A DNA stretch of 43,623 nt from Eubacterium sp. GTDB taxonomy: Bacteria > Bacillota > Clostridia > Oscillospirales > Acutalibacteraceae. The notes under the pieces were generated by a model. The model made no database searches and had not been told where the DNA came from. It saw only the letters and a program-made list of their open reading frames with translations. Below, one piece after another: positions 4,314 through 38,904 of this stretch. Numbering within the stretch: position 1 is the stretch's first letter; the number at the start of each line of letters is the position of its first letter. The position numbers were made by a program, and so were the translations under genes. The DNA lies in NCBI GenBank assembly GCA_017886765.1, contig JAGHJI010000012.1, positions 1 to 43,623 on the forward strand, written 5' to 3'.

Positions 4314-7109
4314 TCAGCCGATCTCCCTGATAACTCCGGCGCAGTGCGCGCAAAGTGTCGGATGTTCTGAATCCGTGCCCACTGTATCGGAATATTTCCA
4401 GCAGCGTTCGCATTTCTCGCCGTCAGCTTTTGATACACAAACGGAAAGGCCGTCTACATCGCCTTTAAACTCTCCTTCTCCGTTTTCAACACAAACGGAT
4501 GAGGTGATGAAAATCTCAGGCAGCGCCGTTTCCACGGATTTCAGGAAATCGAAAAGCTCGCCCTGTGCGCAAAGAGAAACCTTTGCCTCAAGAGGCTTGC
4601 CGATAATCTTTTCGTTTCTTGCAAGCTCCAGCGCTTTCTGAACATCTACTCTGACAGCGTGTATCCTATCCCACTTCGCAATGAAATCATCATCTGCCTC
4701 AATAAAATCCGCCCGGGGAATTTCATTAAACAGCGGGGATTCCGGATTCCTTGAGGAATCGTGAGGCATTGCAAGCCATATCTCGTCGGCTGTAAACGCC
4801 AAAATAGGCGTGAGCATCAATGTAAGCGCGTCCAGCACCTTATAAAGCACCGTCTGCGCGGCGCGTCTTGTGGCGCTGTCCGGAGCGGAGGTATAAAGTC
4901 TGTCCTTGAGCACATCAAAATAGAAATTACTCATATCCACAACACAGAAATTGTGAATGGCGTGTGACACCGTATGATAATCGTAAACCTCATAACCGGC
5001 CCGGGCAGTTTCAATCACCTCGTCAAGCTTCATAAGCGCGTATTTATCAAGCTCCTCAAGCTTGTCATTATCAACAATATCTTTATCCGGATCAAAATCA
5101 TACAGATTGCCGATGCAGTACCTGGCGGTATTTCTGAGCTTTCTGTAGTTATCTGAAATCTGCTTGAGTATTTCCTTGCTGATACGGATATCCGCGTGGT
5201 AATCTGCGCTGGCGACCCACAGACGGAGAATATCCGCGCCGTACTGGCTGATGATCTGCTGAGGATCGATTCCGTTGCCCAGAGATTTGGACATCTTCTT
5301 ACCTTCGCCGTCAACCGTCCAGCCGTGCGTAATGATCTGCTCAAACGGCGCTTTCTCCCCTCCCGCAACAGCAGTCAGAAGAGAGGACTGGAACCAGCCT
5401 CTGTACTGATCGGCGCCTTCAAGATAAACGTCCGCAGGGCGCTTGAGATAAGGTCTGTTCTTGCATACGGCTGCATGGGACGAACCGGAATCAAACCATA
5501 CGTCCATAATATCCTTTTCTTTATCAAAGCCCTTAGCGCTGCCGCAATGCGGGCATTTAAAGCCGTCGGGCAGGAAATATTCCGCATCGTGGGCAAACCA
5601 TGCGTCAGAACCCTCCTTGCCGAATATTTCGGATATTTTCATCATCAGGTCGTTATCAATAATTTCTTTGCCGCATTCCTGACAATATACAACGGGAATC
5701 GGCACGCCCCATTTTCTCTGGCGGGAGATACACCAGTCGGCTCTTTCCTGCACCATAGACTGGAGTCTGTCCTTGCCCCATTCCGGGAACCACTTAACAT
5801 CTTCGGCGGCCTTAACGGCATCGTCCTTAAAATCGTCAACGGAGCAGAACCACTGACTTGTGGCACGGAAAATAACGGGCTTATGGCAACGCCAGCAATG
5901 GGGGTATTGGTGCTCGATTTTCTTTAAAGCGAACAGCGCTCCGGTTTCCTCAAGATAAAGGGCAATGGGCTTGTTTGCTTCTTCTGTTGTAAGGCCGGCA
6001 AACTGCTGACCTGCTTCCTCCGTAAGCCTGCCCTTTTCATCAACAGGGACAATAATCGGGATTTCCGGATAATTCTTGCAGACAACAAAGTCCTCAATAC
6101 CGTGACCGGGAGCTGTGTGAACACATCCGGTACCGCTTTCAAGCGTTACGTGGTCTCCCACAATAACAAGAGAAGTCCTGTCAAGGAAAGGATGCCGGGT
6201 TTTCATATATTCAAGCTCCGAGCCTCTTATAATACCGACAGTCTCATAATCAGCAACACCCTTTGCCTCCATAGCGGCAGGCGCCAGATCGGTAGCCATA
6301 ACATAATATTCATCACCCAATTTGATCAGGGAATACTCATAGTTCGGACCGACGCAGATCGCCACATTGGCAGGAAGGGTCCAGGTCGTCGTGGTCCATA
6401 TAACAAAATATGTTTTGGACAGATCGGCACCCATCGCCGTCAGCTTGCCCAAATCGTCGGTTACATTGAATTTTACGTAAATGGAATGACAGGGATCCTG
6501 AGCGTATTCTATCTCCGCCTCAGCAAGGGCGGTATTACAGTCAGGGCACCAGTAAACAGGTTTCAGTCCTTTGTAGATATAGCCCTTTGACGCCATCGTG
6601 GCAAAAACTTTGATTTGCTCTTCTTCAAATTCCTTTTGCAGAGTAATATACGGATTATCCCACTCCGCGATGATACCCAGTCTTTTAAATGATTCACGCT
6701 GAATGTCTACATATCCCAGCGCTGTATCACGGCAAATTTTTCTCAGTTCCAGATCTGTTATATTGCTTTCAGCCGTGATGCCCGCCTTTTTTCTGGCGGC
6801 AAGTTCGGTGGGCAGACCGTGCGTATCCCAGCCAGGCACAAAAGGCGACTGGAAGCCGGTCATATTTTTATATCTGACAATAAAATCCTTAAGGGTCTTA
6901 TTGAGCGCGTGACCGATATGAATATCTCCGTTGGCATATGGCGGACCGTCATGCAGCACAAAAAGGGGCTTTCCCTCGTTATTCTTCATAAGCTGTCTGT
7001 ACTGATCGTTTGCCTCCCAGCGCGCGAGAAATTCAGGTTCCCTTGCCGGCAGGCTCGCCCGCATGGGAAATTCGGTTTTGGGTAAATTAAGTGTCTGATT
7101 ATAATCCAT
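4314..7109 (-). CDS. ileS: Isoleucyl-tRNA synthetase
   Basis: Charges tRNA-Ile and edits misactivated valine. The class I signatures are HIGH (residues 64-67) and KMSKS (near residue 607). The C-terminal zinc-binding cysteines are 900, 903, 920 and 923. The 931 residues fit the bacterial type that carries the C-terminal zinc finger. The ATG at 7109 has GGAG upstream. It lies directly after divIVA, as in other Firmicutes. I searched by eye for a T-box leader before it and found none. Only a short hairpin sits in the 49-base gap. Confidence 0.98.
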   Translation of the reverse strand: MDYNQTLNLPKTEFPMRASLPAREPEFLARWEANDQYRQLMKNNEGKPLFVLHDGPPYANGDIHIGHALNKTLKDFIVRYKNMTGFQSPFVPGWDTHGLPTELAARKKAGITAESNITDLELRKICRDTALGYVDIQRESFKRLGIIAEWDNPYITLQKEFEEEQIKVFATMASKGYIYKGLKPVYWCPDCNTALAEAEIEYAQDPCHSIYVKFNVTDDLGKLTAMGADLSKTYFVIWTTTTWTLPANVAICVGPNYEYSLIKLGDEYYVMATDLAPAAMEAKGVADYETVGIIRGSELEYMKTRHPFLDRTSLVIVGDHVTLESGTGCVHTAPGHGIEDFVVCKNYPEIPIIVPVDEKGRLTEEAGQQFAGLTTEEANKPIALYLEETGALFALKKIEHQYPHCWRCHKPVIFRATSQWFCSVDDFKDDAVKAAEDVKWFPEWGKDRLQSMVQERADWCISRQRKWGVPIPVVYCQECGKEIIDNDLMMKISEIFGKEGSDAWFAHDAEYFLPDGFKCPHCGSAKGFDKEKDIMDVWFDSGSSHAAVCKNRPYLKRPADVYLEGADQYRGWFQSSLLTAVAGGEKAPFEQIITHGWTVDGEGKKMSKSLGNGIDPQQIISQYGADILRLWVASADYHADIRISKEILKQISDNYRKLRNTARYCIGNLYDFDPDKDIVDNDKLEELDKYALMKLDEVIETARAGYEVYDYHTVSHAIHNFCVVDMSNFYFDVLKDRLYTSAPDSATRRAAQTVLYKVLDALTLMLTPILAFTADEIWLAMPHDSSRNPESPLFNEIPRADFIEADDDFIAKWDRIHAVRVDVQKALELARNEKIIGKPLEAKVSLCAQGELFDFLKSVETALPEIFITSSVCVENGEGEFKGDVDGLSVCVSKADGEKCERCWKYSDTVGTDSEHPTLCAHCAGVIREIG

Positions 7110-7126
7110 TATGTCTGCTCCTTAAT

Positions 7127-7154
7127 AAGACGGCACTGTTTTTGCCGCCGTCTT
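7127..7154 (-). terminator. Weak hairpin between divIVA and ileS
   Basis: AAGACGGC (7127-7134) pairs with GCCGTCTT (7147-7154) around a 12-base loop. It lies between the divIVA stop and the ileS ribosome site without a good T run, so it may be partial attenuation or mRNA processing rather than a full stop. Confidence 0.4.
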
Positions 7155-7158
7155 AGAA

Positions 7159-8412
7159 TTATTTTTTCTTTTTGAAAAAGCCCTTGAATTTTGAGCCTTC
7201 TTCCTCTTCCTCCTCTTCAGGAGATATTAAAGAGATCGTCTCATTTGTTCTCTCATTTTCCCTTTTTACGTGAAAATAATTTTCAAAGGGCATGGAACTT
7301 TCAAATTCCGGTTCATCTTCAATTACGGGAATTGTTTTCGCGCTTTCATCTATAGGGGTTATTTCATCGGTGGAGAAAGCGTCTATGGCATTGGAGACCT
7401 CTTCTTCGGAAACAGGCTCCTCCTCAGGCTCGTGCAAAGGCGAATATGTATTCATGGATTCCAGCTCGTCAATGATTTCATCAACCTGGTCCGCTTCAGA
7501 TCCGTTTTCTTCTTCCCGCTGCTCGGACTCTTCCTCTATGTCGTCAATCTCTTCGATCTCATCGTCGTTTTCGGCAGCCTCGTCCTCGTCAGCGCTCTCT
7601 TCTGCCTCTTCCGGCTCGTCGTTTTCTTCGGGCTGCTCCGTTTTCTGAGGGGCGTCCTCAGGCTCGCTCTCTTCTTCGTCAACGATTTCAGAGATATTTT
7701 CTATTAAAACATTCAGTTCCTTTTCAAGTTTGTCAATATCTTCATTGTCGCCGTCAAATATATCCGGAGACTGGACCATATCGCCGAGTTTATCCAGCTG
7801 ATCCTGATAAAGTCCCATCAGCGTTGATCTGAAAGCCTTTGACTCCTCTTTCAGTTTTGACACGATTTCAGAATGATAATCCTTCTCCGTTTTTGCCTTG
7901 CTGACAATTTCCTCGGCAAGTTTTTTCGCCTGAGAAAGCGCGTTTGAGGCAACCACTTTCGCGCTGTCAATGGCTTCATTGGCCTTTTTCTGCGCCTCAG
8001 CGATGATTTCATCGGCGGCCTCCGCCTTTTCCTTTGTAAGGCCGGCAACGTATTCCCTAGCCTCGCCGATAATCTTTTCGGCCTTTTCCTTTGCATCCAC
8101 AACGGTCTGCTGCGCCGACGCGGCGGAATCCGCAAGGGACTTATCCGCTTTCTCCTTTGCGTCGCGTGTTACCTGTGACGCCATTTTCTGCGCCGTAATG
8201 AGAGCGGTCTTTATGGAATCCTCGTCCGCTCTGTATTCTTCTATACGATTGGCAAGGACTTCCATCTTACGGTAAAGCTCTTTGTTCTCGTCAAAAATAG
8301 CCTCATAAGATTCTATGATCTCCAAAAGGAGTTCATTAACCTCGTCTCTGTCATAACCGCCGCTTTCCACGGTTGAAAGCTTTTTTTCACGAATCTGGCT
8401 TGGTGTGATCAT
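7159..8412 (-). CDS. divIVA: DivIVA-domain cell division/polarity protein with long acidic tail
   Basis: Coiled-coil scaffold that gathers at curved membrane of septa and poles. The N-terminal DivIVA domain is recognisable: 'MITPSQIREKKL', then 'GGYDRDEVNELLLEI' by residue 35. A long Ala/Glu/Lys-rich coiled coil follows to about residue 205. After that comes a very acidic, low-complexity stretch of about 180 residues, and a basic end 'KFKGFFKKKK'. At 417 residues it is more than twice the length of Bacillus DivIVA. I chose the second ATG (8412) because AGGGGAG is 7 bases upstream. The first ATG is too close to it. The sepF-divIVA-ileS order supports the call. Confidence 0.88.
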   Translation of the reverse strand: MITPSQIREKKLSTVESGGYDRDEVNELLLEIIESYEAIFDENKELYRKMEVLANRIEEYRADEDSIKTALITAQKMASQVTRDAKEKADKSLADSAASAQQTVVDAKEKAEKIIGEAREYVAGLTKEKAEAADEIIAEAQKKANEAIDSAKVVASNALSQAKKLAEEIVSKAKTEKDYHSEIVSKLKEESKAFRSTLMGLYQDQLDKLGDMVQSPDIFDGDNEDIDKLEKELNVLIENISEIVDEEESEPEDAPQKTEQPEENDEPEEAEESADEDEAAENDDEIEEIDDIEEESEQREEENGSEADQVDEIIDELESMNTYSPLHEPEEEPVSEEEVSNAIDAFSTDEITPIDESAKTIPVIEDEPEFESSMPFENYFHVKRENERTNETISLISPEEEEEEEGSKFKGFFKKKK

Positions 8413-8444
8413 ATTCATTCTCCCCTATATCATTAAAATAACAT

Positions 8445-8948
8445 TTACATAAACATACCGTTGTTTTCAAGTTCATCGATCAAGTCGCCCATAACATCCA
8501 CATTATAAGGCGTTATTATATATGTACTGTTGGCGACTCTTTTAATCTGGCCGTTGCTGGCATAGGCAACGCCGCTCAAAAAGTCAAGCAGTCTGCGCGC
8601 GATATCGCGGTTTGTGCTTTCAAGGTTTAAGACAACCGTTCTTTTCGCGTTCAGATTATCGGCGATGGACGCTGCCTCCTCAAACCGCTCCGGCTTAACC
8701 AGCACGACCTGCAGCTGCGTGGTGGTATGTATATTGACCACCTTATCGCTGTCATGGCGGCGCATGCGGGGACGCTCCGTATAGCGTTCCTCCCTTTCGG
8801 CCTTTTCCTGCGCTCTTTCCCTTCTTGAAGACCTTTCCTTAGGGGGATCTATACCGAAAGCACCCGGACTGCCGTTATCATAGAAATCGTCAAAATCATC
8901 ATCGTCGTTGTCGGAAACAATATCCTTAATTTTATCAAATAAACCCAT
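8445..8948 (-). CDS. sepF: SepF cell division protein
   Basis: Membrane-binding partner of FtsZ that bundles filaments at the septum. It has 167 residues. The N-terminal amphipathic segment is 'MGLFDKIKDIV', followed by an acidic and then Arg/Glu-rich linker. The conserved SepF fold starts near residue 80, with 'VVLVKPERFEEA', 'NLNAKRTVVLNLE' and 'RRLLDFLSGVAYA'. The ATG at 8948 has AGGAG upstream. It sits between yggS (28-base gap) and divIVA (32-base gap), as in Bacillus ylmE-sepF-...-divIVA. Confidence 0.95.
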   Translation of the reverse strand: MGLFDKIKDIVSDNDDDDFDDFYDNGSPGAFGIDPPKERSSRRERAQEKAEREERYTERPRMRRHDSDKVVNIHTTTQLQVVLVKPERFEEAASIADNLNAKRTVVLNLESTNRDIARRLLDFLSGVAYASNGQIKRVANSTYIITPYNVDVMGDLIDELENNGMFM

Positions 8949-8976
8949 ATTTCCTCTCCTTGCTCAGCTGCCGTTC

Positions 8977-9708
8977 TTAATAATATTTTCTTTCGCCGAA
9001 GATGGCGGACCCTACACGGACAATATTTGAACCGTTGGCAACAGCCGCTTCAAAATCTCCGCTCATACCCATGGACAAAATATCCATATTTATATTATCT
9101 AATTTTTTATCTCTAATGTCAATGAAAGATTGATACATTGCGCTGAAATATTCGGAAACCTCCTTTTCACTGTCACAAATAGGCGGAATCGTCATCAGCC
9201 CCCTGACTTTAATGCCGTCCATTTGAGCAATTTCCGCCAGCAGCTGTTCAAGCTGTTCCATATAAACGCCGCTCTTGGATTCTTCCCTGCCAACATTGAC
9301 CTCCACAAGCACATCTGTAACTATGCCTTTGTTGGACGAGACCTTGCTGATTTCTTTGGCGAGCTTTACCGAATCAACGGATTCGATCATATCGACCTCA
9401 CCCACGATTTGTTTGACCTTATTTGTCTGCAGGTGACCGATAAGATGCTTTTCTACACCGTCCAGATGCAGCTCATCCTTTTTACCGAGATATTCCTGAA
9501 CCCTGTTTTCTCCTATCAGATCGGCTCCCAAATCAAGAACTCTGTTGATATAAACGCTTTCAACAGTCTTGGTCACTGCCATGAGCCTTACGTCCCCGGG
9601 ATTCCTTCCGGCTTTTACAGCCGCCTCCTCCACGCGCGTCTTTATCGCTTTATAATTATCTCCGACTGCCTGCAGCCGTTTTTCATCAACTGTAAACTTT
9701 TCCGTCAT
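8977..9708 (-). CDS. yggS: YggS-family PLP-binding protein (PLP homeostasis)
   Basis: Pyridoxal-5'-phosphate carrier with an alanine-racemase-like barrel and no known catalytic activity. It affects PLP and amino acid homeostasis (E. coli YggS, Bacillus YlmE). It has 243 residues. The PLP lysine is Lys47 in 'AVTKTVES', and 'GENRVQEY', 'HLIGHLQTNK' and 'LSMGMSGDFEAA' are family signatures. The start at 9708 lies inside the end of the upstream HlyD-like gene (23-base overlap), with AAGGAA upstream, so translation is probably coupled. Confidence 0.95.
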   Translation of the reverse strand: MTEKFTVDEKRLQAVGDNYKAIKTRVEEAAVKAGRNPGDVRLMAVTKTVESVYINRVLDLGADLIGENRVQEYLGKKDELHLDGVEKHLIGHLQTNKVKQIVGEVDMIESVDSVKLAKEISKVSSNKGIVTDVLVEVNVGREESKSGVYMEQLEQLLAEIAQMDGIKVRGLMTIPPICDSEKEVSEYFSAMYQSFIDIRDKKLDNINMDILSMGMSGDFEAAVANGSNIVRVGSAIFGERKYY

Positions 9709-10951
9709 GCAAATCCGTTCCTTTCGTTATAATCTGGTCATAAAAGCGTATGGAATCACTGTTTTCCGCGTCATACGCAAAAACAGCATAATCGTTTGTA
9801 GTATACACGATATTCCCCGCGCGTTTTTCGACTGTATTTGAAACCAGAGCATACACAAACTTGTTGCCCTCGTCGTCCACATGAACTGCCGACGCGGGAA
9901 TTTTAAAGCCCGTATATTCGTTATATCTGATCTCAATATCCTCAAGCCGCATGGATGTGATCCTGCTGTTCATATCGGAACAACGGAGTATCAGCACGGT
10001 CTCCTCCTGGTTCAAATCGGGATCCGCTCCACTGACGACCTGACATTTAATCACCTCGTCGCTTGACTTAAGCGCAATATTAAGACTGTCACCGTTATTG
10101 ATCTGTGCGGCGTCATCGGCTGAAATAACGCAGCAAAAATACCATTCATAACTGGTAATGAGCTTCCCGAAACTGTTCTGGTCCGACTGCGCCTTGGAAG
10201 CCTGTTCTATACAGCTATTCAGCGTTTCAACGTTTAGCTCTTCCACCTTATCATAATCAACTATAGATTCCAATCCGTCGGTATAGGATGAGAAAATACC
10301 GGATTCATCAGTGGTTACATAATCTATAGGGCTGCAGCCGTCAACATTTATATTATCCAGCTGTTCCTGCAAATCCGCCTTGACCTGTGAAAAATCTATT
10401 TTCTCCCCTATCGTAAGCTGACGTCTTATGAATTTTTCATTGAGGTCATCAGAATACTCCGAGAGATTGCTGTAGCTTTTACTGTTGAGCGCCCGTATAT
10501 ACTGATTTACATCGGTCAGTATATCCCCGTCGATCTGCGCCACGTCTGCGACAGTGCCCGACGCCTGACTCTCAAGCTCTTCATAATAATCCAGCTGGCT
10601 CTGCAGATCAGCGGCCGTTGAGTATGCCGTGGCATTCTCCTGGGAAGAGAATACCATCGCCACATTACCGCCCACCTTCACTTTTTCTCCGTTTTCAACA
10701 CTTGCGACGGTAACACCGCTGTCGCTGCCGTTTATCGTATGCTCGTCCCTCACCACCAGGGCTTTGGCGTCAATCGTTTCATAAACTGTTGAGGTAACGG
10801 CGGTAATCGTTTCCACATCCACATGAGTAGCGCTGTAGCACTCATAAAATATGTAACCGGCAATGATAAGCAAAACGATTATGATTGCAAAAACATCGCC
10901 CCGTATTTTGCCGGGATTTTTATTCACTTTTTCCTTTTTGGAATTTTCCAT
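9686..10951 (-). CDS. HlyD-like membrane adaptor protein, partner unknown
   Basis: A 421-residue protein with one N-terminal transmembrane helix (about residues 20-42). A periplasmic-adaptor-like architecture follows: a biotinyl-lipoyl-like half ('GVTVASVENGEKVKVGG', about 80-95), a helical section, and a C-terminal beta domain with 'TGFKIPASAVHVDDEGNKFVY'. Such adaptors normally link a transporter to the cell exterior, but no transporter gene is nearby. It overlaps miaA by 32 bases and yggS by 23, so it belongs firmly to this operon. I recall similar proteins beside sepF/ylmE in other Clostridia, which suggests an envelope or division role. That is inference. Confidence 0.7.
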   Translation of the reverse strand: MENSKKEKVNKNPGKIRGDVFAIIIVLLIIAGYIFYECYSATHVDVETITAVTSTVYETIDAKALVVRDEHTINGSDSGVTVASVENGEKVKVGGNVAMVFSSQENATAYSTAADLQSQLDYYEELESQASGTVADVAQIDGDILTDVNQYIRALNSKSYSNLSEYSDDLNEKFIRRQLTIGEKIDFSQVKADLQEQLDNINVDGCSPIDYVTTDESGIFSSYTDGLESIVDYDKVEELNVETLNSCIEQASKAQSDQNSFGKLITSYEWYFCCVISADDAAQINNGDSLNIALKSSDEVIKCQVVSGADPDLNQEETVLILRCSDMNSRITSMRLEDIEIRYNEYTGFKIPASAVHVDDEGNKFVYALVSNTVEKRAGNIVYTTNDYAVFAYDAENSDSIRFYDQIITKGTDLHDGKVYS

Positions 10952-11864
10952 TTATAAAATCCTCACAATAAGCGACTGCCGTTTTTACTGTCTTATCAAA
11001 GCCCATAACATCCGGTCTGAGAATAATTGCGCCGCTGCGCTTCTTAAACCATGTAATCTGGCGTTTGGCATAGTTTCTCGTTTTTTGTTTTAAGTTATCA
11101 AGAGCGTCGTCAAGGGTACATTCACCGTTCAGATAAGGCATCAGTTCTTTATGACCGATTGCCTGCGCGCAGGTGGCTGAAGTTTTTTTCAGATTGTCCT
11201 TTGCCTCCTGAATCAGACCCTGCTCAACCATTTTGTCGACTCTGGCATTGATTCTGTTATACAGTATCTGACGGTCGGCATAGTCAAGAACAAAATAGAG
11301 CACGTTGTAAGGGGACTCCTCCCGGCGTGAATTTATATTCTGCTGTGTTTTGCTGACTCCTGAATAATAGAGTTCCAGCGCTCTGACAACGCGTTTTTTA
11401 TTGTTTTTATGTATCTGCCCAGCAGATGCAGGATCAAGCTTTATAAGTTCTTCATAGAGCGAATCACAGTCTCTTTGCATCAGACGGTCACGCAATTCAT
11501 AATCCACCTGCGTATCCTCAAAAAGGATATTGTCCGCGAGACTGTCAATAAAAAGACCTGTTCCGCCCACAATAACGGGAATTTTACCACCGGCGGCAAT
11601 CTCATCGATCTTCCGCCTTGCCATGTCGCACCATGCCGCTACGGAAAAGCTGTCCGTACGATCAAGAAACTCCACAAGATGATGCCTGACCTGCGCTTTT
11701 TCATAATCCGTGGGACAGGCTGTAGCTATGGGCATATTTTTATATACCTGCATAGAATCGGCGGAAATGATTTCACCGCCGACTGCTTTGGCGATTTCAA
11801 TACCCAGACTTGTTTTGCCGGAAGCCGTGGGGCCCGCGACGATAATTATTTTTTTCTTCATCAT
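10920..11864 (-). CDS. miaA: tRNA dimethylallyltransferase
   Basis: Adds a dimethylallyl group to N6 of A37 in tRNAs reading UNN codons. It has 314 residues. The P-loop 'GPTASGKT' is at residues 11-18 and the conserved 'DSMQVYKNM' at 36-44. The core motif 'IVGGTGLFIDSL' and the C-terminal 'QITWFKKR' also match. The start lies 3 bases after the mutL stop. Its product is the substrate of MiaB, encoded at 17660-19099 in the same probable transcription unit, so both steps of ms2i6A synthesis are in this run. Confidence 0.97.
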   Translation of the reverse strand: MMKKKIIIVAGPTASGKTSLGIEIAKAVGGEIISADSMQVYKNMPIATACPTDYEKAQVRHHLVEFLDRTDSFSVAAWCDMARRKIDEIAAGGKIPVIVGGTGLFIDSLADNILFEDTQVDYELRDRLMQRDCDSLYEELIKLDPASAGQIHKNNKKRVVRALELYYSGVSKTQQNINSRREESPYNVLYFVLDYADRQILYNRINARVDKMVEQGLIQEAKDNLKKTSATCAQAIGHKELMPYLNGECTLDDALDNLKQKTRNYAKRQITWFKKRSGAIILRPDVMGFDKTVKTAVAYCEDFINGKFQKGKSE

Positions 11865-33544: not shown

Positions 33545-33577
33545 AAAAAAGGCTATGGAAAAAACCATAGCCTTTTT
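33545..33577. terminator. Terminator after the giant-protein/mini-protein unit
   Basis: AAAAAGGCTATGG (33546-33558) pairs with CCATAGCCTTTTT (33565-33577) around a 6-base loop, with T runs in both directions. It closes the minus-strand unit that starts at 38904 and insulates the tyrA promoter. Confidence 0.85.
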
Positions 33578-33587
33578 ATATGAATCA

Positions 33588-33737
33588 TTATGAGAAGTAA
33601 TCGAAATCATCACCGTCGTCGAGATCGCTTCCGTTATCGCCATCTCCCTCGCCAATGTCTGATGTCATTACGATATTGCTCGGAGGGAGTATATAATTAC
33701 GAATTTCAATTACCGGTTCATCATAAAACTTTTTCAT
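33588..33737 (-). CDS. 49-residue acidic mini-protein downstream of the giant secreted protein
   Basis: Starts with ATG 33737, with GGAGG about 9 bases upstream, only 18 bases after the stop of the giant gene. It ends 11 bases before the terminator. The N-terminal half is 'MKKFYDEPVIEIRNYILPP'. The rest is Gly/Asp rich ('GEGDGDNGSDLDDGDDFDYF') with DxDxDG-like spacing that could bind Ca2+. There is no signal peptide or transmembrane helix. I recall short 'MKKYE.PE.E...' proteins with Gly/Asp tails in gut Clostridia but no function for them. The ribosome site and position make it very likely real. Confidence 0.7.
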   Translation of the reverse strand: MKKFYDEPVIEIRNYILPPSNIVMTSDIGEGDGDNGSDLDDGDDFDYFS

Positions 33738-33755
33738 AATTAAATTCCTCCTTCC

Positions 33756-36700
33756 TTAAAATCCTTCGGTTGTTCCCATTACCGACTTTGAATATAATGT
33801 AGTCAAATTACCATCCGCATCCTTTACGATTGCATATCCGCTGTATTTAAAGTTTACAGCCGCACCGCTTGAAGGAGCTTTTACGTTGATGACAAACTGA
33901 TTGCCGCAGGTATAGGATGAAGCTTTCATACGAGCCACTCCGTCATTACCCACATTTTCTACAGTCAGGTCAGCAGCCTGATTTGATGAGAACAGGATAC
34001 CGCACTCCACAAGTGTATAGTCCTCAGGAAGAACGAAGGTACCAATCATTGAGAATTTGGAGAACTTATTGCTTTCATCATAAATCGGAACTACATTTTC
34101 CTGAACCATTACAGCAGGATTTGGATCAACATACGTATATGTTCCCATAAAGTCATCAATTTCTGCAAGAATGATATTATCATTCGCATCTACCAGTTTG
34201 AAAATTAAATCAGCATCCGGATTGCTTTCAAGCTCCGCTGTCTGATACTCGACAAACATTTCATAATCTTCACGGGTAAGTGAAACCAATCCCATCGTGT
34301 CGTCATATGAAATATTCTGGCAAGCGTAGAATGAATACTCAGTTCCTAAAGCAACAATTTTATAATACTCATAGCCATCGTCATCCATAGAAGCGATTGC
34401 CCAGCAGTAAGCGTCCGGATTTGAGTAATCAAGACGTGTATTATATTGAACAACGTCCTGTCTTGTAGCAACTCCGCCGTACCAATCATCATTTAATGAT
34501 GCAAAATAATCAATCGTATAGGTATTGGCTGTATCTGCCTCATAGTTTGCCACAATTGTTGTATCGGCTGAAACATCAATTTCTTCTCCAGCAGTATAAC
34601 CGCCTTCATAACCTGTAAATGTATAGAATGCGTAATTCGGCGCATCCGGAACCATTACTTTACCATTGGTTGTATACTGGACGTCAAATATCTTTCCGCC
34701 ATTCGTTGCGAACTTAACAACATATCCTTCTTCGTCAGAAGTTGCGTTTGCGGTTGTGAGATATGTGTTACCTTTCACAATGAAGCCTAAAGCCTTTGCG
34801 GTCAGCATATATTTAGCTTCTGTCTGTTCACCATCTCTTGACGGCGCTGAATAGCTGTAAGACCATGCAACTGACTTTTCACCATCACATTCTGTTGAAT
34901 CTATATCAGCAACATTTGCCTTAAATGCACCATCACTGCCTACAATAACCGGAGTTCCGTATTCAGCAGTACCAACAGGTGAACCGTTAAGATAAATCGT
35001 ATAAACATTTTTGTTGAGATTGTTAAGGAATTCAGCGATAGCGGCATCTACATCTTGCTGCGTTGCAAAGGTAAGACCAACAACATCTTTACCGCCAACA
35101 TTCACAACAGAAGTATAGGTGAAATCAAGTGTTGACAGATCATATACATCCTCGTCCTTGCCGGCCTTTGCCTCTTCGGCGGCAGCTTTAGCTGCATCTA
35201 TATCCACTTCCGCGGGAGTAAGGCTCTCTCTGAGCGCGTTTATCGCTTCTGTCTCTGCGTTGATAGAAGCCTGAACATCGCCCATGAGCTCATCTCTTTC
35301 CTCTTCAGGCATATCATAATATGTCATGCCCTCAATAGCAGCTTTAAGTTCTTCAAGATCAGCAACAGAATAGACTTCGTCAGTCAGAACTCCGAGAAGC
35401 TGAGCTGTTGCATTATTATATGCGGTAAAGTCAGCTTTGTTAAGTTCTGACTCATACTGAGCCGTATAAGTTCTTGCAGCTGTTACAGGTGTATCAAGAT
35501 CTACTTCAGGTGACCAGTTAATAAATGTATATGTGTAAACGCCGTCAGCAGAAACATATGTTTCCGGATAGTCGATTGCGTTAATCTCGTCAGCGTAATC
35601 TGTGAGCGTTTTGCCATATTCAACATTAATTACTGCTGAAGCATCTGACGCATCAGTATCCTTATAGTTGAATGTAACAGGCAGTGTCTTTATCTGAAGA
35701 TCCTGATATGCATTCCAGAGATTTGTATATCTGGTTCTGCAGCGAAGAAGTATCGTCGCTGAATCCATATTTGAGTAATCAAGCGGCTCTTTTGCAGCCT
35801 CGAGAGCTGTAACGAAAGTAGACCAAGAATCATCCGTATATTTCGCGGAATCAGCAACAAGAGCATCACACATCTCAATGAGATCAAAGAGATAGGAAAC
35901 GTCAATTACCACTACTGATGATACAACAGAATTGTTATTGGCAGCACTTGTAAACCATGTGTATCCAGCGAACTGTGTTGTGTTTCTCAAGTTACGTGCC
36001 GTTACAGCGCCGAAATAGGTGTTCAGTACAGTGGTAGTGGATTGCGGAACGGTGTCCGCTGAAAGCTCCTGAACATTTGTATCGGCAGGGATAGTGATAT
36101 TCATATCCGCGGAAACATCGACGGTTGCAAAGTTACTACCATCCGTTGAATGGGCAAACACACCGCCGCGGGCCGGATTTGTATCAGCACCGTCCGTGGT
36201 GCCGAGTATTCCGGTAAGATCCGTATTCATTGCCTGAATCTCATCGGTAATCTGGGTACCGTCGGAAAGAGTCAGTATACGATCGGCGTCATTATAATTG
36301 TTTCTTCCGGCGTATTTCAAATTTGAAAGTGAAAATTCCGCAGTACCATTATTGTATACAAGAGAACCCGCGTAAGTCTGCTTCTGAGCATCACTAAGTC
36401 CCCAGCCGCTCGGAAAACCGGATAAAATACTTTCGTCGGTAAGATAATGTATGCTGTTGTCATTTGTACTTCCGGCATTCAGCGTAATACTGTCAAGCAT
36501 ATTATTTTGCAGCGTTACGCCACCTATGCTGTCCCCATAATTTACGGAAAATCTGATATTCGCATCACCGTATTTGGCTGTAACACCATCATGGGTTGTT
36601 TTAAAGATCGTCGCACTGGACGGATACGAAAAATCCACACGCTGGTAACCCATGTCTTGACGTTCCATCGTCGGCAAATCCGTGTTCGCAGATTCCACCG

Positions 36701-38714
36701 CAACGGTACCGTCCGGTATCAGCGTAAAGGCATATTCAAGCGCCTCATACGCAGCAACCATATCTTCAATATGCGCCAGATAATCAGCGTATTGTGTATC
36801 ATAATCCGTCAGTTCCGTAACGGCAAGCAGATCAATATAATCAAGAGCAGCATTTACCGCCGTTTCATAGGTTGCCCAATTATAGTATACTGAAGAGTCC
36901 TCAACGGTATCCTTAAGCGCTATTGCAGAATTCATTGAATATCTGCCGTATTGAGTAATAAGAACCGTGTCCGGATCGATGCGCAAACCTCTGACAGCAT
37001 TTTCAACAGCCGTTACCTGCTCGGCTACGAGCGCGATGTTTTCCTCTGATTCATCCAGAGCGGAGGCCGCGTCCTTATATTTGTCAGCAGAACCCCATAC
37101 AGCAGCCTTTGCAGTCTCTACAACTGCTGTTACCTGCGCGTATGTCTCAGAAGTAAAGATGTTTTCATAAGCCTCAAACTCGTCAATAACAGCCTCAAGA
37201 GCAGCTGTGTCTACTTTTTCAGCATCTGTTACTAAATCAACAGCGTTCAGCGCGTCAGCAGCCGCCTGCGCGCCTTGAGTATCCGTATATCCCGATGAAG
37301 CAACAGCGGTCATAACACGCATAGCTTCTTCGTAAGCAGCGGCAAGTTCACTGTAAGAATCCTCAGTATAGCCTTCATTTACGCCATTGTTATAGGCAGC
37401 CATTTTGGTATCCATAGCCGCGCGTAACGCAGCATATTCCGCACTATTTGTGTTGGTAGTGGACGCGGTGTTCACGCCGGATACAGCCTGTCTCATAGCG
37501 GATACGCAGGCGGAAGAACCGTCGCCGCTTGTAAAATAGCTGTTCGGATCAAAGCTTGTGGCAGCGTCCATAGCCTGAATATATGCAGAAAGACCGCCCT
37601 CGCTGTAGTTTTTAAGGTCAATGGATTTCATCTTTGATCCGTTCTGCGCAATAGCATCAGTAAGCGTCTTATAATTGATTACCTTGATAGAAGAAGACGC
37701 CTGAACGGTTGAATCATCCGCGTTGTTGTCACTGCCGGTGGTGGTGTACCAATACAGCGTATACTCATCGTTGTAGTCATCAGGAACGGTATTCAGTTTC
37801 AGGGCGTTCGACATATAGAGCGGAGCGCCGGCATAATAATCATAACCCGGGGGCCAAGCGCGATAACTTCTTGTGTTGTCAGGTATCTTGCCGCTTCTCA
37901 TGCTCGTGGAGAAAGTACCCTCATAGCCGGTTGCGCGGTTGTATCCGGCGTGGGAATCAACGCCGTTGGAATCCTCGCCGCCCCACTGACCTGACCACCA
38001 GTTCCAGTTCCAGTTGGCGTTATTTCCGTTACCGCTCTGCCACTGGCCGACCAGCGCCCAGTCAGCGTCGTCATTGCCGCTGTTGTCGCTGGGATAGCAG
38101 GACCAAATGTACCTGTCCCTATCCCAAGCGCCATCTGAAGCATCTTCATTGGCAGACATCATGACGGGAAGAATAACGTCGTTCTGTCCGTCATACAGGA
38201 GCACTGCGTCCGGGGCATAATAAACATTGTGCTGAACACCGCCGGTAGGACCGCCGGTAGTAACGGCAACCGCCTGGGAAGCGTACAGAACATTATTATA
38301 GCCTGTTCCGGCAAACTCACGCATGTCATCAGCAGTGGAGTTTGAGAATGTAGGAACAGCTGTTCCCGTATAGCCGGTAAAATTCGTCATCTGATCAGAC
38401 GCAGTATTGAGCGCGTCGACCGCGTCGTGAAGAGCGGAAACATCAGCGGCGCCGCCGTAATAATAAGCGTCAATCGCTTCCTGAACATCCACATACGCAT
38501 TGTATGCCGGCTCTACATTGCCATAAGACGCGCCTTCCGTCGCCAGCTTTTCGGCAAAAGCCTGCATGGCTTCCTGCGCCGCAAGCACTTCCGGATCGGC
38601 GACGGCGTCCGTTTCAGCCGCAAATGCACTAAATGACATAAGCGGAACGGAAGTAACAACCATCAGAGCCGCAAGCAGCACAGACAAAATTCTTTTTGAA
38701 AGTTTTGTTCTCAT
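33756..38714 (-). CDS. Giant secreted multidomain surface protein, function unknown
   Basis: 1652 residues. A clear Sec signal peptide (1-32) ends 'SFSAFA'. Regions: a short helical part to about 80; a beta-like domain with a Trp/Asn-rich low-complexity patch (about 228-245); FIVAR-like three-helix repeats (about 428-590); a beta domain (about 690-920); more helices (about 930-1000 and 1087-1190); two stretches like Listeria-Bacteroides/InlB beta repeats (about 1010-1086 and 1326-1391, 'YTFINWSPEV', 'FTGYEGGYTAGEEI'); and a final compact domain (about 1553-1652, 'TFVLPEDYTLVECGILFS'). No LPxTG, dockerin or S-layer motif is seen, so attachment is unclear. AGGAGG precedes ATG 38714. An adhesin or scaffold role is inference. 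Confidence 0.85.
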   Translation of the reverse strand: MRTKLSKRILSVLLAALMVVTSVPLMSFSAFAAETDAVADPEVLAAQEAMQAFAEKLATEGASYGNVEPAYNAYVDVQEAIDAYYYGGAADVSALHDAVDALNTASDQMTNFTGYTGTAVPTFSNSTADDMREFAGTGYNNVLYASQAVAVTTGGPTGGVQHNVYYAPDAVLLYDGQNDVILPVMMSANEDASDGAWDRDRYIWSCYPSDNSGNDDADWALVGQWQSGNGNNANWNWNWWSGQWGGEDSNGVDSHAGYNRATGYEGTFSTSMRSGKIPDNTRSYRAWPPGYDYYAGAPLYMSNALKLNTVPDDYNDEYTLYWYTTTGSDNNADDSTVQASSSIKVINYKTLTDAIAQNGSKMKSIDLKNYSEGGLSAYIQAMDAATSFDPNSYFTSGDGSSACVSAMRQAVSGVNTASTTNTNSAEYAALRAAMDTKMAAYNNGVNEGYTEDSYSELAAAYEEAMRVMTAVASSGYTDTQGAQAAADALNAVDLVTDAEKVDTAALEAVIDEFEAYENIFTSETYAQVTAVVETAKAAVWGSADKYKDAASALDESEENIALVAEQVTAVENAVRGLRIDPDTVLITQYGRYSMNSAIALKDTVEDSSVYYNWATYETAVNAALDYIDLLAVTELTDYDTQYADYLAHIEDMVAAYEALEYAFTLIPDGTVAVESANTDLPTMERQDMGYQRVDFSYPSSATIFKTTHDGVTAKYGDANIRFSVNYGDSIGGVTLQNNMLDSITLNAGSTNDNSIHYLTDESILSGFPSGWGLSDAQKQTYAGSLVYNNGTAEFSLSNLKYAGRNNYNDADRILTLSDGTQITDEIQAMNTDLTGILGTTDGADTNPARGGVFAHSTDGSNFATVDVSADMNITIPADTNVQELSADTVPQSTTTVLNTYFGAVTARNLRNTTQFAGYTWFTSAANNNSVVSSVVVIDVSYLFDLIEMCDALVADSAKYTDDSWSTFVTALEAAKEPLDYSNMDSATILLRCRTRYTNLWNAYQDLQIKTLPVTFNYKDTDASDASAVINVEYGKTLTDYADEINAIDYPETYVSADGVYTYTFINWSPEVDLDTPVTAARTYTAQYESELNKADFTAYNNATAQLLGVLTDEVYSVADLEELKAAIEGMTYYDMPEEERDELMGDVQASINAETEAINALRESLTPAEVDIDAAKAAAEEAKAGKDEDVYDLSTLDFTYTSVVNVGGKDVVGLTFATQQDVDAAIAEFLNNLNKNVYTIYLNGSPVGTAEYGTPVIVGSDGAFKANVADIDSTECDGEKSVAWSYSYSAPSRDGEQTEAKYMLTAKALGFIVKGNTYLTTANATSDEEGYVVKFATNGGKIFDVQYTTNGKVMVPDAPNYAFYTFTGYEGGYTAGEEIDVSADTTIVANYEADTANTYTIDYFASLNDDWYGGVATRQDVVQYNTRLDYSNPDAYCWAIASMDDDGYEYYKIVALGTEYSFYACQNISYDDTMGLVSLTREDYEMFVEYQTAELESNPDADLIFKLVDANDNIILAEIDDFMGTYTYVDPNPAVMVQENVVPIYDESNKFSKFSMIGTFVLPEDYTLVECGILFSSNQAADLTVENVGNDGVARMKASSYTCGNQFVINVKAPSSGAAVNFKYSGYAIVKDADGNLTTLYSKSVMGTTEGF

Positions 38715-38870
38715 AATGATTTCCTCCTAAACAATTTACCCCTAAATTGCAGATGAAAGCCGCCGGTGCCTCTGTTTCTGACCCAACTTCAGCATCTGGT
38801 TCCATCTGAGATTAAGAAGCATTTCAGTGTGCAACAGGGTATAAAATCCCCTATTTCACCTTTATATACA
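38715..38870 (-). promoter_or_regulatory. Long leader of the giant-protein mRNA, possibly structured
   Basis: About 150 bases lie between the promoter (38876-38904) and the ATG at 38714. In the RNA, CAGATGGAA (38808-38800) can pair with TTTCATCTG (38758-38750), nine pairs including one G-U, enclosing about 40 bases. A smaller AGGG/CCCT hairpin lies upstream. I could not match it to a known riboswitch class such as c-di-GMP I or II. Confidence 0.35.
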
Positions 38871-38875
38871 ATAAA

Positions 38876-38904
38876 ATAATACCACAACAAAAAGCGCTTG
38901 TCAA
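38876..38904 (-). promoter_or_regulatory. Consensus sigma-A promoter for the giant secreted protein
   Basis: -35 TTGACA (38899-38904), 17-base spacer, -10 TATTAT (38876-38881). This is the best match to consensus in the window, so strong expression is likely. The spacer holds an AAGCGCTT palindrome. The rest of the gap up to argG (38905-39060) is AT rich with nothing else recognisable. Confidence 0.75.

Follow-up and report, generated by a model that had tools for sequence, protein, structure and literature searches.

The 49-residue acidic protein (the mini) encoded directly behind a 1652-residue secreted protein (the giant) in Eubacterium sp. is very probably the precursor of an LPP-like RiPP that is matured in trans, and a partner of the co-encoded surface protein. 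LPPs, linear polyphosphorylated peptides, are a kind of RiPP (Popov et al. 2026, PMC13381572). Comparison of sequences across genomes points to this reading from several sides: the minis form a family and divide into leader and core, they tend to follow secreted-protein genes, the parts of a maturation system are present and co-occur with them, and their cores co-vary with the C-terminal domain of the upstream protein. RiPPs, ribosomal peptides that undergo modification and export, are usually taken to be secreted antimicrobials or signals made from one compact gene cluster; here the precursors are scattered, most of those examined lying behind secreted-protein genes, and apparently share machinery encoded elsewhere.

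The locus and the mini-protein family

The window, the whole stretch of 43,623 nt that was analysed (GenBank GCA_017886765.1, contig JAGHJI010000012.1), forms contig 55 of G000, a draft genome of 1.9 Mb split into 91 contigs. Its minus strand carries, in this order, a promoter-like site, the 1652-aa secreted protein, 18 nt, the 49-aa ORF and a terminator-like hairpin. The earlier note had described this layout, including an AGGAGG-type site of the mini's own, and every element was confirmed:

38876..38904, minus strand: sigma-70-type promoter-like site, TTGACA-17-TATTAT with TG before the -10 (motif scan, 11/12 match)
38723..38728, minus strand: ribosome-binding site of the giant, AGGAGG (read from the sequence)
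33756..38714, minus strand: giant secreted protein, 1652 aa (ORF; relatives found)
33759..34127, minus strand: C-terminal Ig-like beta-sandwich of the giant, residues ~1530-1652 (region co-varies with the mini core in relatives)
33747..33752, minus strand: ribosome-binding site of the mini, AGGAGG, within the 18-nt gap (read from the sequence)
33588..33737, minus strand: mini-protein, 49 aa, on the best reading an LPP-like RiPP precursor (family, context, co-occurrence, anatomy)
33663..33737, minus strand: predicted leader of the mini, residues 1-25, with the RRE-type motif Y5-x-x-P8-x-I10 and predicted cleavage after T25 (family pattern, and analogy with LppA cleavage after T-1 in PMC13381572)
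33591..33662, minus strand: predicted core of the mini, residues 26-49, acidic and Gly-rich, with S26 as candidate modified residue (proposed from the family pattern)
33546..33577, minus strand: intrinsic terminator-like hairpin, 13-bp stem and T run (hairpin scan)

Promoter-like sites are frequent in the window (25 found, 13.6 expected), and the terminator-like hairpin has the longest stem of the five found, with 4.8 expected. In near relatives the mini is better conserved than the giant, with identities to the window's pair of 66% and 43% in G011, 58% and 39% in G027, 61% and 42% in G024, and 49% and 43% in G008. Of the 53 places read, most keep the short gap, the ribosome-binding site and a hairpin-like sequence after the mini. 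Because the mini is the better conserved partner and these elements recur, the arrangement is more than chance.

The N-terminus of the giant is MRTKLSKRILSVLLAALMVVTSVPLMSFSAFA. No Pfam or NCBIfam family reached its cut-off for either the giant or the mini, viral contigs searched with the giant gave no match, and PDB sequence searches with the giant, its C-terminal region, the kinase and the signal-peptidase-like protein (SpI) described below gave nothing convincing. The C-terminal 270 aa of the giant model as an Ig-like sandwich, residues 1-43 of the model being unreliable; this predicted fold is too generic for naming a function.

With the window's mini as the sole query, 26 of the 36 other genomes of the genus matched, one of them falsely (G036), as did 1 of 23 genomes outside the genus. 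A profile (A1) was made from 45 minis; 8 of 53 places were omitted, namely near-duplicates, the false hit and, by oversight, G006:C9. It found minis in 49 of the 60 genus genomes and in 52 of the 295 order genomes, from 35 of 148 sampled genera, the window's genome being counted in both; by family codes, the mini-bearing genomes of the order span 14 families. The window's genome has three minis with three different cores, all standing 18-24 nt behind secreted proteins (of 1652, 2230 and 919 aa). Eubacterium coprostanoligenes ATCC 51222 (G005), a named relative, has a giant and mini pair as well as RRE, kinase, SpI plus ABC, and NTP_transf_5 genes. The largest set among the 60 genus genomes is that of G021, with 15 precursor-like minis at E <= 0.01.

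By the pattern seen across the family, the mini is a predicted RRE-type leader followed by a distinct acidic core. YxxP lies near the N-terminus in 128 of 134 minis and YxxPx[LIVMFA] in 120; in the window's mini the motif reads Y5DEP8VI10. The script placed a (D)V-x-T site after YxxP in 130 of the 134, the other four having no V-x-T-like site there; the leader/core split falls too early in a few minis (G013, G280), and the G337 mini is truncated. From leader to core, K+R drops from 14% to 2%, Gly rises from 1% to 15% and D+E from 18% to 28%. Ser stands shortly behind the split Thr in 125 of 130, a biased count since the split rule favours a Thr with Ser close behind. Between genomes of the genus leaders are more alike than cores, the core being the more similar part in 17% of 4479 pairs. 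Among mini pairs from the same genome, 21 of 86 have cores at least 60% identical, and in 17 of these 21 the similarity of the cores exceeds that of the leaders; G006 has cores that are 100% identical behind leaders at 39%. Shared cores with divergent leaders in one genome are the pattern expected from selection on a released core.

Partners of the minis

The earlier note had read the tight pairing as a functional link between mini and secreted protein, to be sought in homologues. The link now appears likely, since the pairing recurs order-wide and the core co-varies with the C-terminal domain of the partner. Among the 94 minis with context, 67 lie at most 50 nt behind a same-strand gene. Where the start of that gene was available, it looks Sec-like in 51 of 52 cases, compared with 98 of the 401 remaining genes in those regions (Fisher p 1e-26). 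These context counts exclude a false hit (G036:C46), and a mini whose upstream gene is not on its contig (G058) is not among the 94; the second context set took 43 of the 107 listed order places, mainly those with the best E-values. The held-out set comprised 40 listed places in genomes G330-G352, chosen roughly by E-value: 32 of its 40 minis lie at most 50 nt behind a same-strand gene, and 19 of 20 readable upstream genes are Sec-like against 26 of 96 controls (Fisher p 1e-8). Sec signals were scored by a home-made rule, with a background of 24% and 27% in the two comparisons.

Outside the genus 23 of 38 minis are within the same distance, and each of the 19 partners that could be read looks secreted. 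These partners run from 338 to 3035 aa, so a partner does not have to be of giant size, as it is in the earlier note. That note had named minis without such neighbours as the case against a link; they exist, as a minority. Of the 38 minis outside the genus, 15 lack a same-strand gene in the 50 nt upstream, and for 4 of these 15 a secreted-looking gene starts at most 31 nt downstream. Within the genus, 8 of 56 minis of the first set occupy one fixed place before a lipoprotein/two-component locus, seven of them behind mnmA, and 5 of 40 held-out minis stand behind a 351-352 aa gene carrying the MnmA C-terminus, giving 13 orphans among 96 genus minis. For 12 of the 13 a second mini of the same genome was in hand, and the core is at least 60% identical to it in 9 of the 12 (not in G012, G342 and G350).

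The orphan loci are L072, L074, L081, L087, L090, L080, L099 and L061, in which the lipoprotein-response regulator-histidine kinase locus was read, and L280, L282, L291, L298 and L312; 12 of the 13 minis stand behind mnmA. The names mnmA, lipoprotein, response regulator and histidine kinase are those we presume from the sequences. Elsewhere, three minis (L160, L161, L159; two in G024, one in G300) overlap slightly with the next gene, which encodes a lipoprotein-like protein of 180-202 aa.

Co-variation was measured by Mantel tests on 43 genus pairs, with the upstream protein represented by its last 110 aa; 29 pairs came from 10 multi-pair genomes. Similarity of the C-terminal domain correlates with that of the core at r 0.63 and with that of the leader at 0.39, and core correlates with leader at 0.17. 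The core thus follows the upstream protein's C-terminal domain more closely than it follows its own leader; the earlier note had named co-variation of the two families as support for a link. When partners were shuffled within genomes only, p was 0.0005 for core and for leader alike, which is the floor of the permutation. The partial correlations with the C-terminal domain are 0.61 for the core given the leader and 0.37 for the leader given the core (p 0.0005), and 0.56 and 0.37 with within-genome duplicates removed. Joint inheritance contributes, because the leader too follows the C-terminal domain. Joint duplication by itself, however, would be expected to bind leader and core to that domain to the same degree, and a functional link of the core with the domain therefore seems the better reading, short of proof.

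Maturation genes and known systems

Across the 60 genomes of the genus, the window's included, the mini was found in 49, a stand-alone RRE in 51, SpI in 49 and the kinase in 46, and nine genomes have none of the four. No mini-bearing genome of the genus lacks the RRE, two lack SpI and five a detected kinase; two genomes have RRE, kinase and SpI with no mini detected. In the order, the kinase is present in 49 of 52 mini genomes against 86 of 295 overall, the exceptions being three mini genomes without kinase and 37 kinase genomes without a detected mini. The p values for these associations (Fisher, mini in the genus with RRE 4e-9, with SpI 2e-7, with kinase 6e-6; kinase in the order 2e-28) overstate them, because the genomes share descent. 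PF14907 gave one match in each of the nine system-less genomes and 2-5 in the other 51. The stand-alone PqqD/RRE proteins, in frames of roughly 90-120 aa, occur in all 49 mini-bearing genomes; the count of 51 leaves aside weak PF05402 matches from five system-less genomes, four in 474-506 aa frames (in G335 over the cut-off, neighbours included) and the fifth in G019 at E 0.009.

Six loci from other genera have genes for a kinase-like protein, an RRE and a signal-peptidase-like protein (SpI) within 1.2 kb behind the mini. Behind a secreted protein and mini, L175 has kinase-RRE-SpI-NTP_transf_5, and L178 and L103 have kinase-RRE-SpI, in L103 with a lipoprotein-like gene in between. L264, in a one-contig genome, has kinase-RRE-SpI-ABC behind the mini; L265 reads mini-kinase-RRE-SpI-NTP, and its contig has nothing ahead of the mini; in L266 kinase, RRE and SpI come after an SLH protein. 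SLH-domain proteins occur in three clusters (L266, L267, L268), which fits a surface setting. The window's genome has the same parts dispersed: SpI at C17:925 (profile E 5e-37) with an ABC transporter behind it, RRE genes on C18 and C26, the kinase at C21:28713 (profile E 2e-61), and NTP_transf_5 genes on C26, C19 and C43. None of the machinery genes searched for lies beside the mini there.

The RRE family PF05402 is over cut-off in L175, L178 and the window's genome, the nucleotidyltransferase PF14907 is found in L175 and the window's genome, and ABC_membrane and ABC_tran adjoin SpI in the window's genome, L264 and L246. The kinase-like protein carries the motifs [GA]PSGxGKSTH and NDDKP, which we take to be HprK-like; its only NCBIfam hits, HprK_rel_A and ScmC, are below cut-off, and it has no Pfam match and no PDB relative. 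SpI matches are likewise below cut-off, TIGR02228 at E 4e-5 for L175 (none for L178) and Peptidase_S24 at E 0.006 for the window's genome. The Ser-His spacing in the SpI-like proteins is 39, 39 and 40 against 39 in LppS, and the His-Asp spacing 14-15 against 25 (LppS after PMC13381572).

Other clusters were seen alongside these. L246, within the genus, is compact (reverse strand, 6317-11555), with a 133-aa precursor-like ORF, RRE, ABC transporter, SpI, kinase and NTP_transf_5-like gene. In the variant cluster L278 a single ORF comprises kinase and RRE and is accompanied by SpI, a radical-SAM-like protein and an ABC-like protein; in the variant L269 the kinase occurs with a radical-SAM-like protein and with a precursor-like ORF that contains Cys. 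A repeat protein with SKYLRDPNEKxTSKYVRD-like units adjoins kinase-RRE genes, standing just before them in L241, L258 and L259 and nearby in L244 and L251; it is possibly another substrate.

According to PMC13381572, an RRE binds the LPP leader, a kinase phosphorylates core Ser3 and an SpI-like enzyme cuts after Thr-1; the ABC exporter is MsbA-like; the precursor consensus is YxxPxVLxHQxIxFETxxS, the RRE-bound leader motif [Y/W]xxPx[L/V/I/F/A], and the biological role is given as unknown. Measured against that account, the minis share the YxxP leader, the variable C-terminus, the Thr at the predicted cleavage site and the Ser just after it, and the gene set is likewise shared: discrete RRE, a putatively HprK-like kinase, SpI-like leader peptidase, NTP transferase and ABC exporter. 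Unlike the LPPs described there, the minis come several to a genome (three in the window's genome and as many as 15 in G021), and most of those read stand behind a secreted-protein gene. The machinery of the window's genome is in trans to the mini, that of L175, L178, L103, L264, L265 and L266 clustered with it. The minis also lack the HQxIxFET part of the published consensus, the A1 consensus having neither HQ nor FE. Because this part is missing and the machinery here is unclustered, we file the mini as LPP-like and not as an LPP. A search of one open library for the LPP name returned PMC13381572 alone; in its main text, words that begin with Clostridi, secreted, surface or S-layer do not occur.

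Proposed pathway and alternatives

We picture the pathway as follows. A single mRNA would yield the secreted giant and the 49-aa precursor. By homology with the known parts, the Y5xxP8 leader would then be bound by a stand-alone RRE protein encoded elsewhere, the Ser at the core start phosphorylated by the HprK-like kinase, and the chain cut after T25 by a small archaeal-type signal-peptidase-like enzyme. The phosphate may be extended by the nucleotidyltransferase, and an acidic peptide of ~24 aa would leave through the ABC transporter encoded beside the peptidase. Outside, the peptide would act with the giant's Ig-like C-terminal domain. How it acts is a more speculative matter. One possibility, which we hold only tentatively, is that the peptide decorates or tethers surface proteins, each core being matched to the Ig-like domain of the secreted protein encoded ahead of it, phosphorylated, extended by the nucleotidyltransferase and, once exported, bound or attached to this domain. 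If so, one shared RiPP machinery gives several surface proteins their own anionic peptide. The partner gene and the co-variation of core and C-terminal domain make a surface role of LPP-like peptides directly testable.

A rather unlikely alternative has the matured core acting as a pheromone sensed by a histidine kinase, with the surface protein merely co-expressed. Such a signal would suit genomes like G006, whose precursors share a core behind different leaders, and the orphan copies that precede lipoprotein, response regulator and histidine kinase; in L175, too, what are presumably a response regulator and a kinase come after the machinery. Signalling does not, however, demand that the core track the C-terminal domain of the upstream protein, and the window's genome has three different cores. 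The earlier note had suggested, as examples, a chaperone, export partner or regulator of the giant, and a cytoplasmic protein of this kind, or a Ca2+-binding regulator, would agree with the tight, conserved spacing behind secreted genes and with an acidic C-terminus and no signal peptide. Such a role leaves the co-occurrence with RRE, kinase and peptidase, the machinery clusters and the leader/core anatomy unexplained, and some minis have no secreted neighbour. As anatomy and co-occurring machinery indicate a RiPP precursor, we now regard it as very improbable.

We give as little weight to the idea that the mini is the precursor of some other RRE-dependent peptide, such as a lasso peptide. Lasso peptides with a discrete RRE (paeninodin type) share with the minis a [Y/W]xxP-type leader and an RRE, and paeninodin-like clusters contain a kinase and an NTP transferase (PMC13381572). 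The stand-alone RRE also has sub-cut-off similarity to lasso PqqD models, and the lasso_cyano model is matched by 1 of 45 minis (E 0.044). The lasso leader peptidase PF13471, however, is nearly absent from the genus, with hits in 3 of 60 genomes (one over cut-off, in 403-437 aa frames) and none in the window's genome, and the clusters carry SpI instead. That the mini is a bacteriocin-like product or a spurious ORF is barely credible: the ORF is short and the window's genome a draft in 91 contigs, but the mini has its own ribosome-binding site, is better conserved than the giant in near relatives and belongs to an order-wide family. SSB-like docking by an acidic tip of the mini was considered and dropped, as it accounts for neither leader nor machinery.

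On the preferred reading, that of an LPP-like precursor matured in trans, the minis are proposed as substrates for the stand-alone RRE proteins found beside housekeeping genes. Such RRE genes were seen in L211, L213, L210, L217, L218, L220, L223, L225, L227 and L229. In several genomes an RRE gene and an NTP_transf_5-like gene lie ahead of what we take to be lepA, and other RRE genes lie near presumed guaA or dnaJ.
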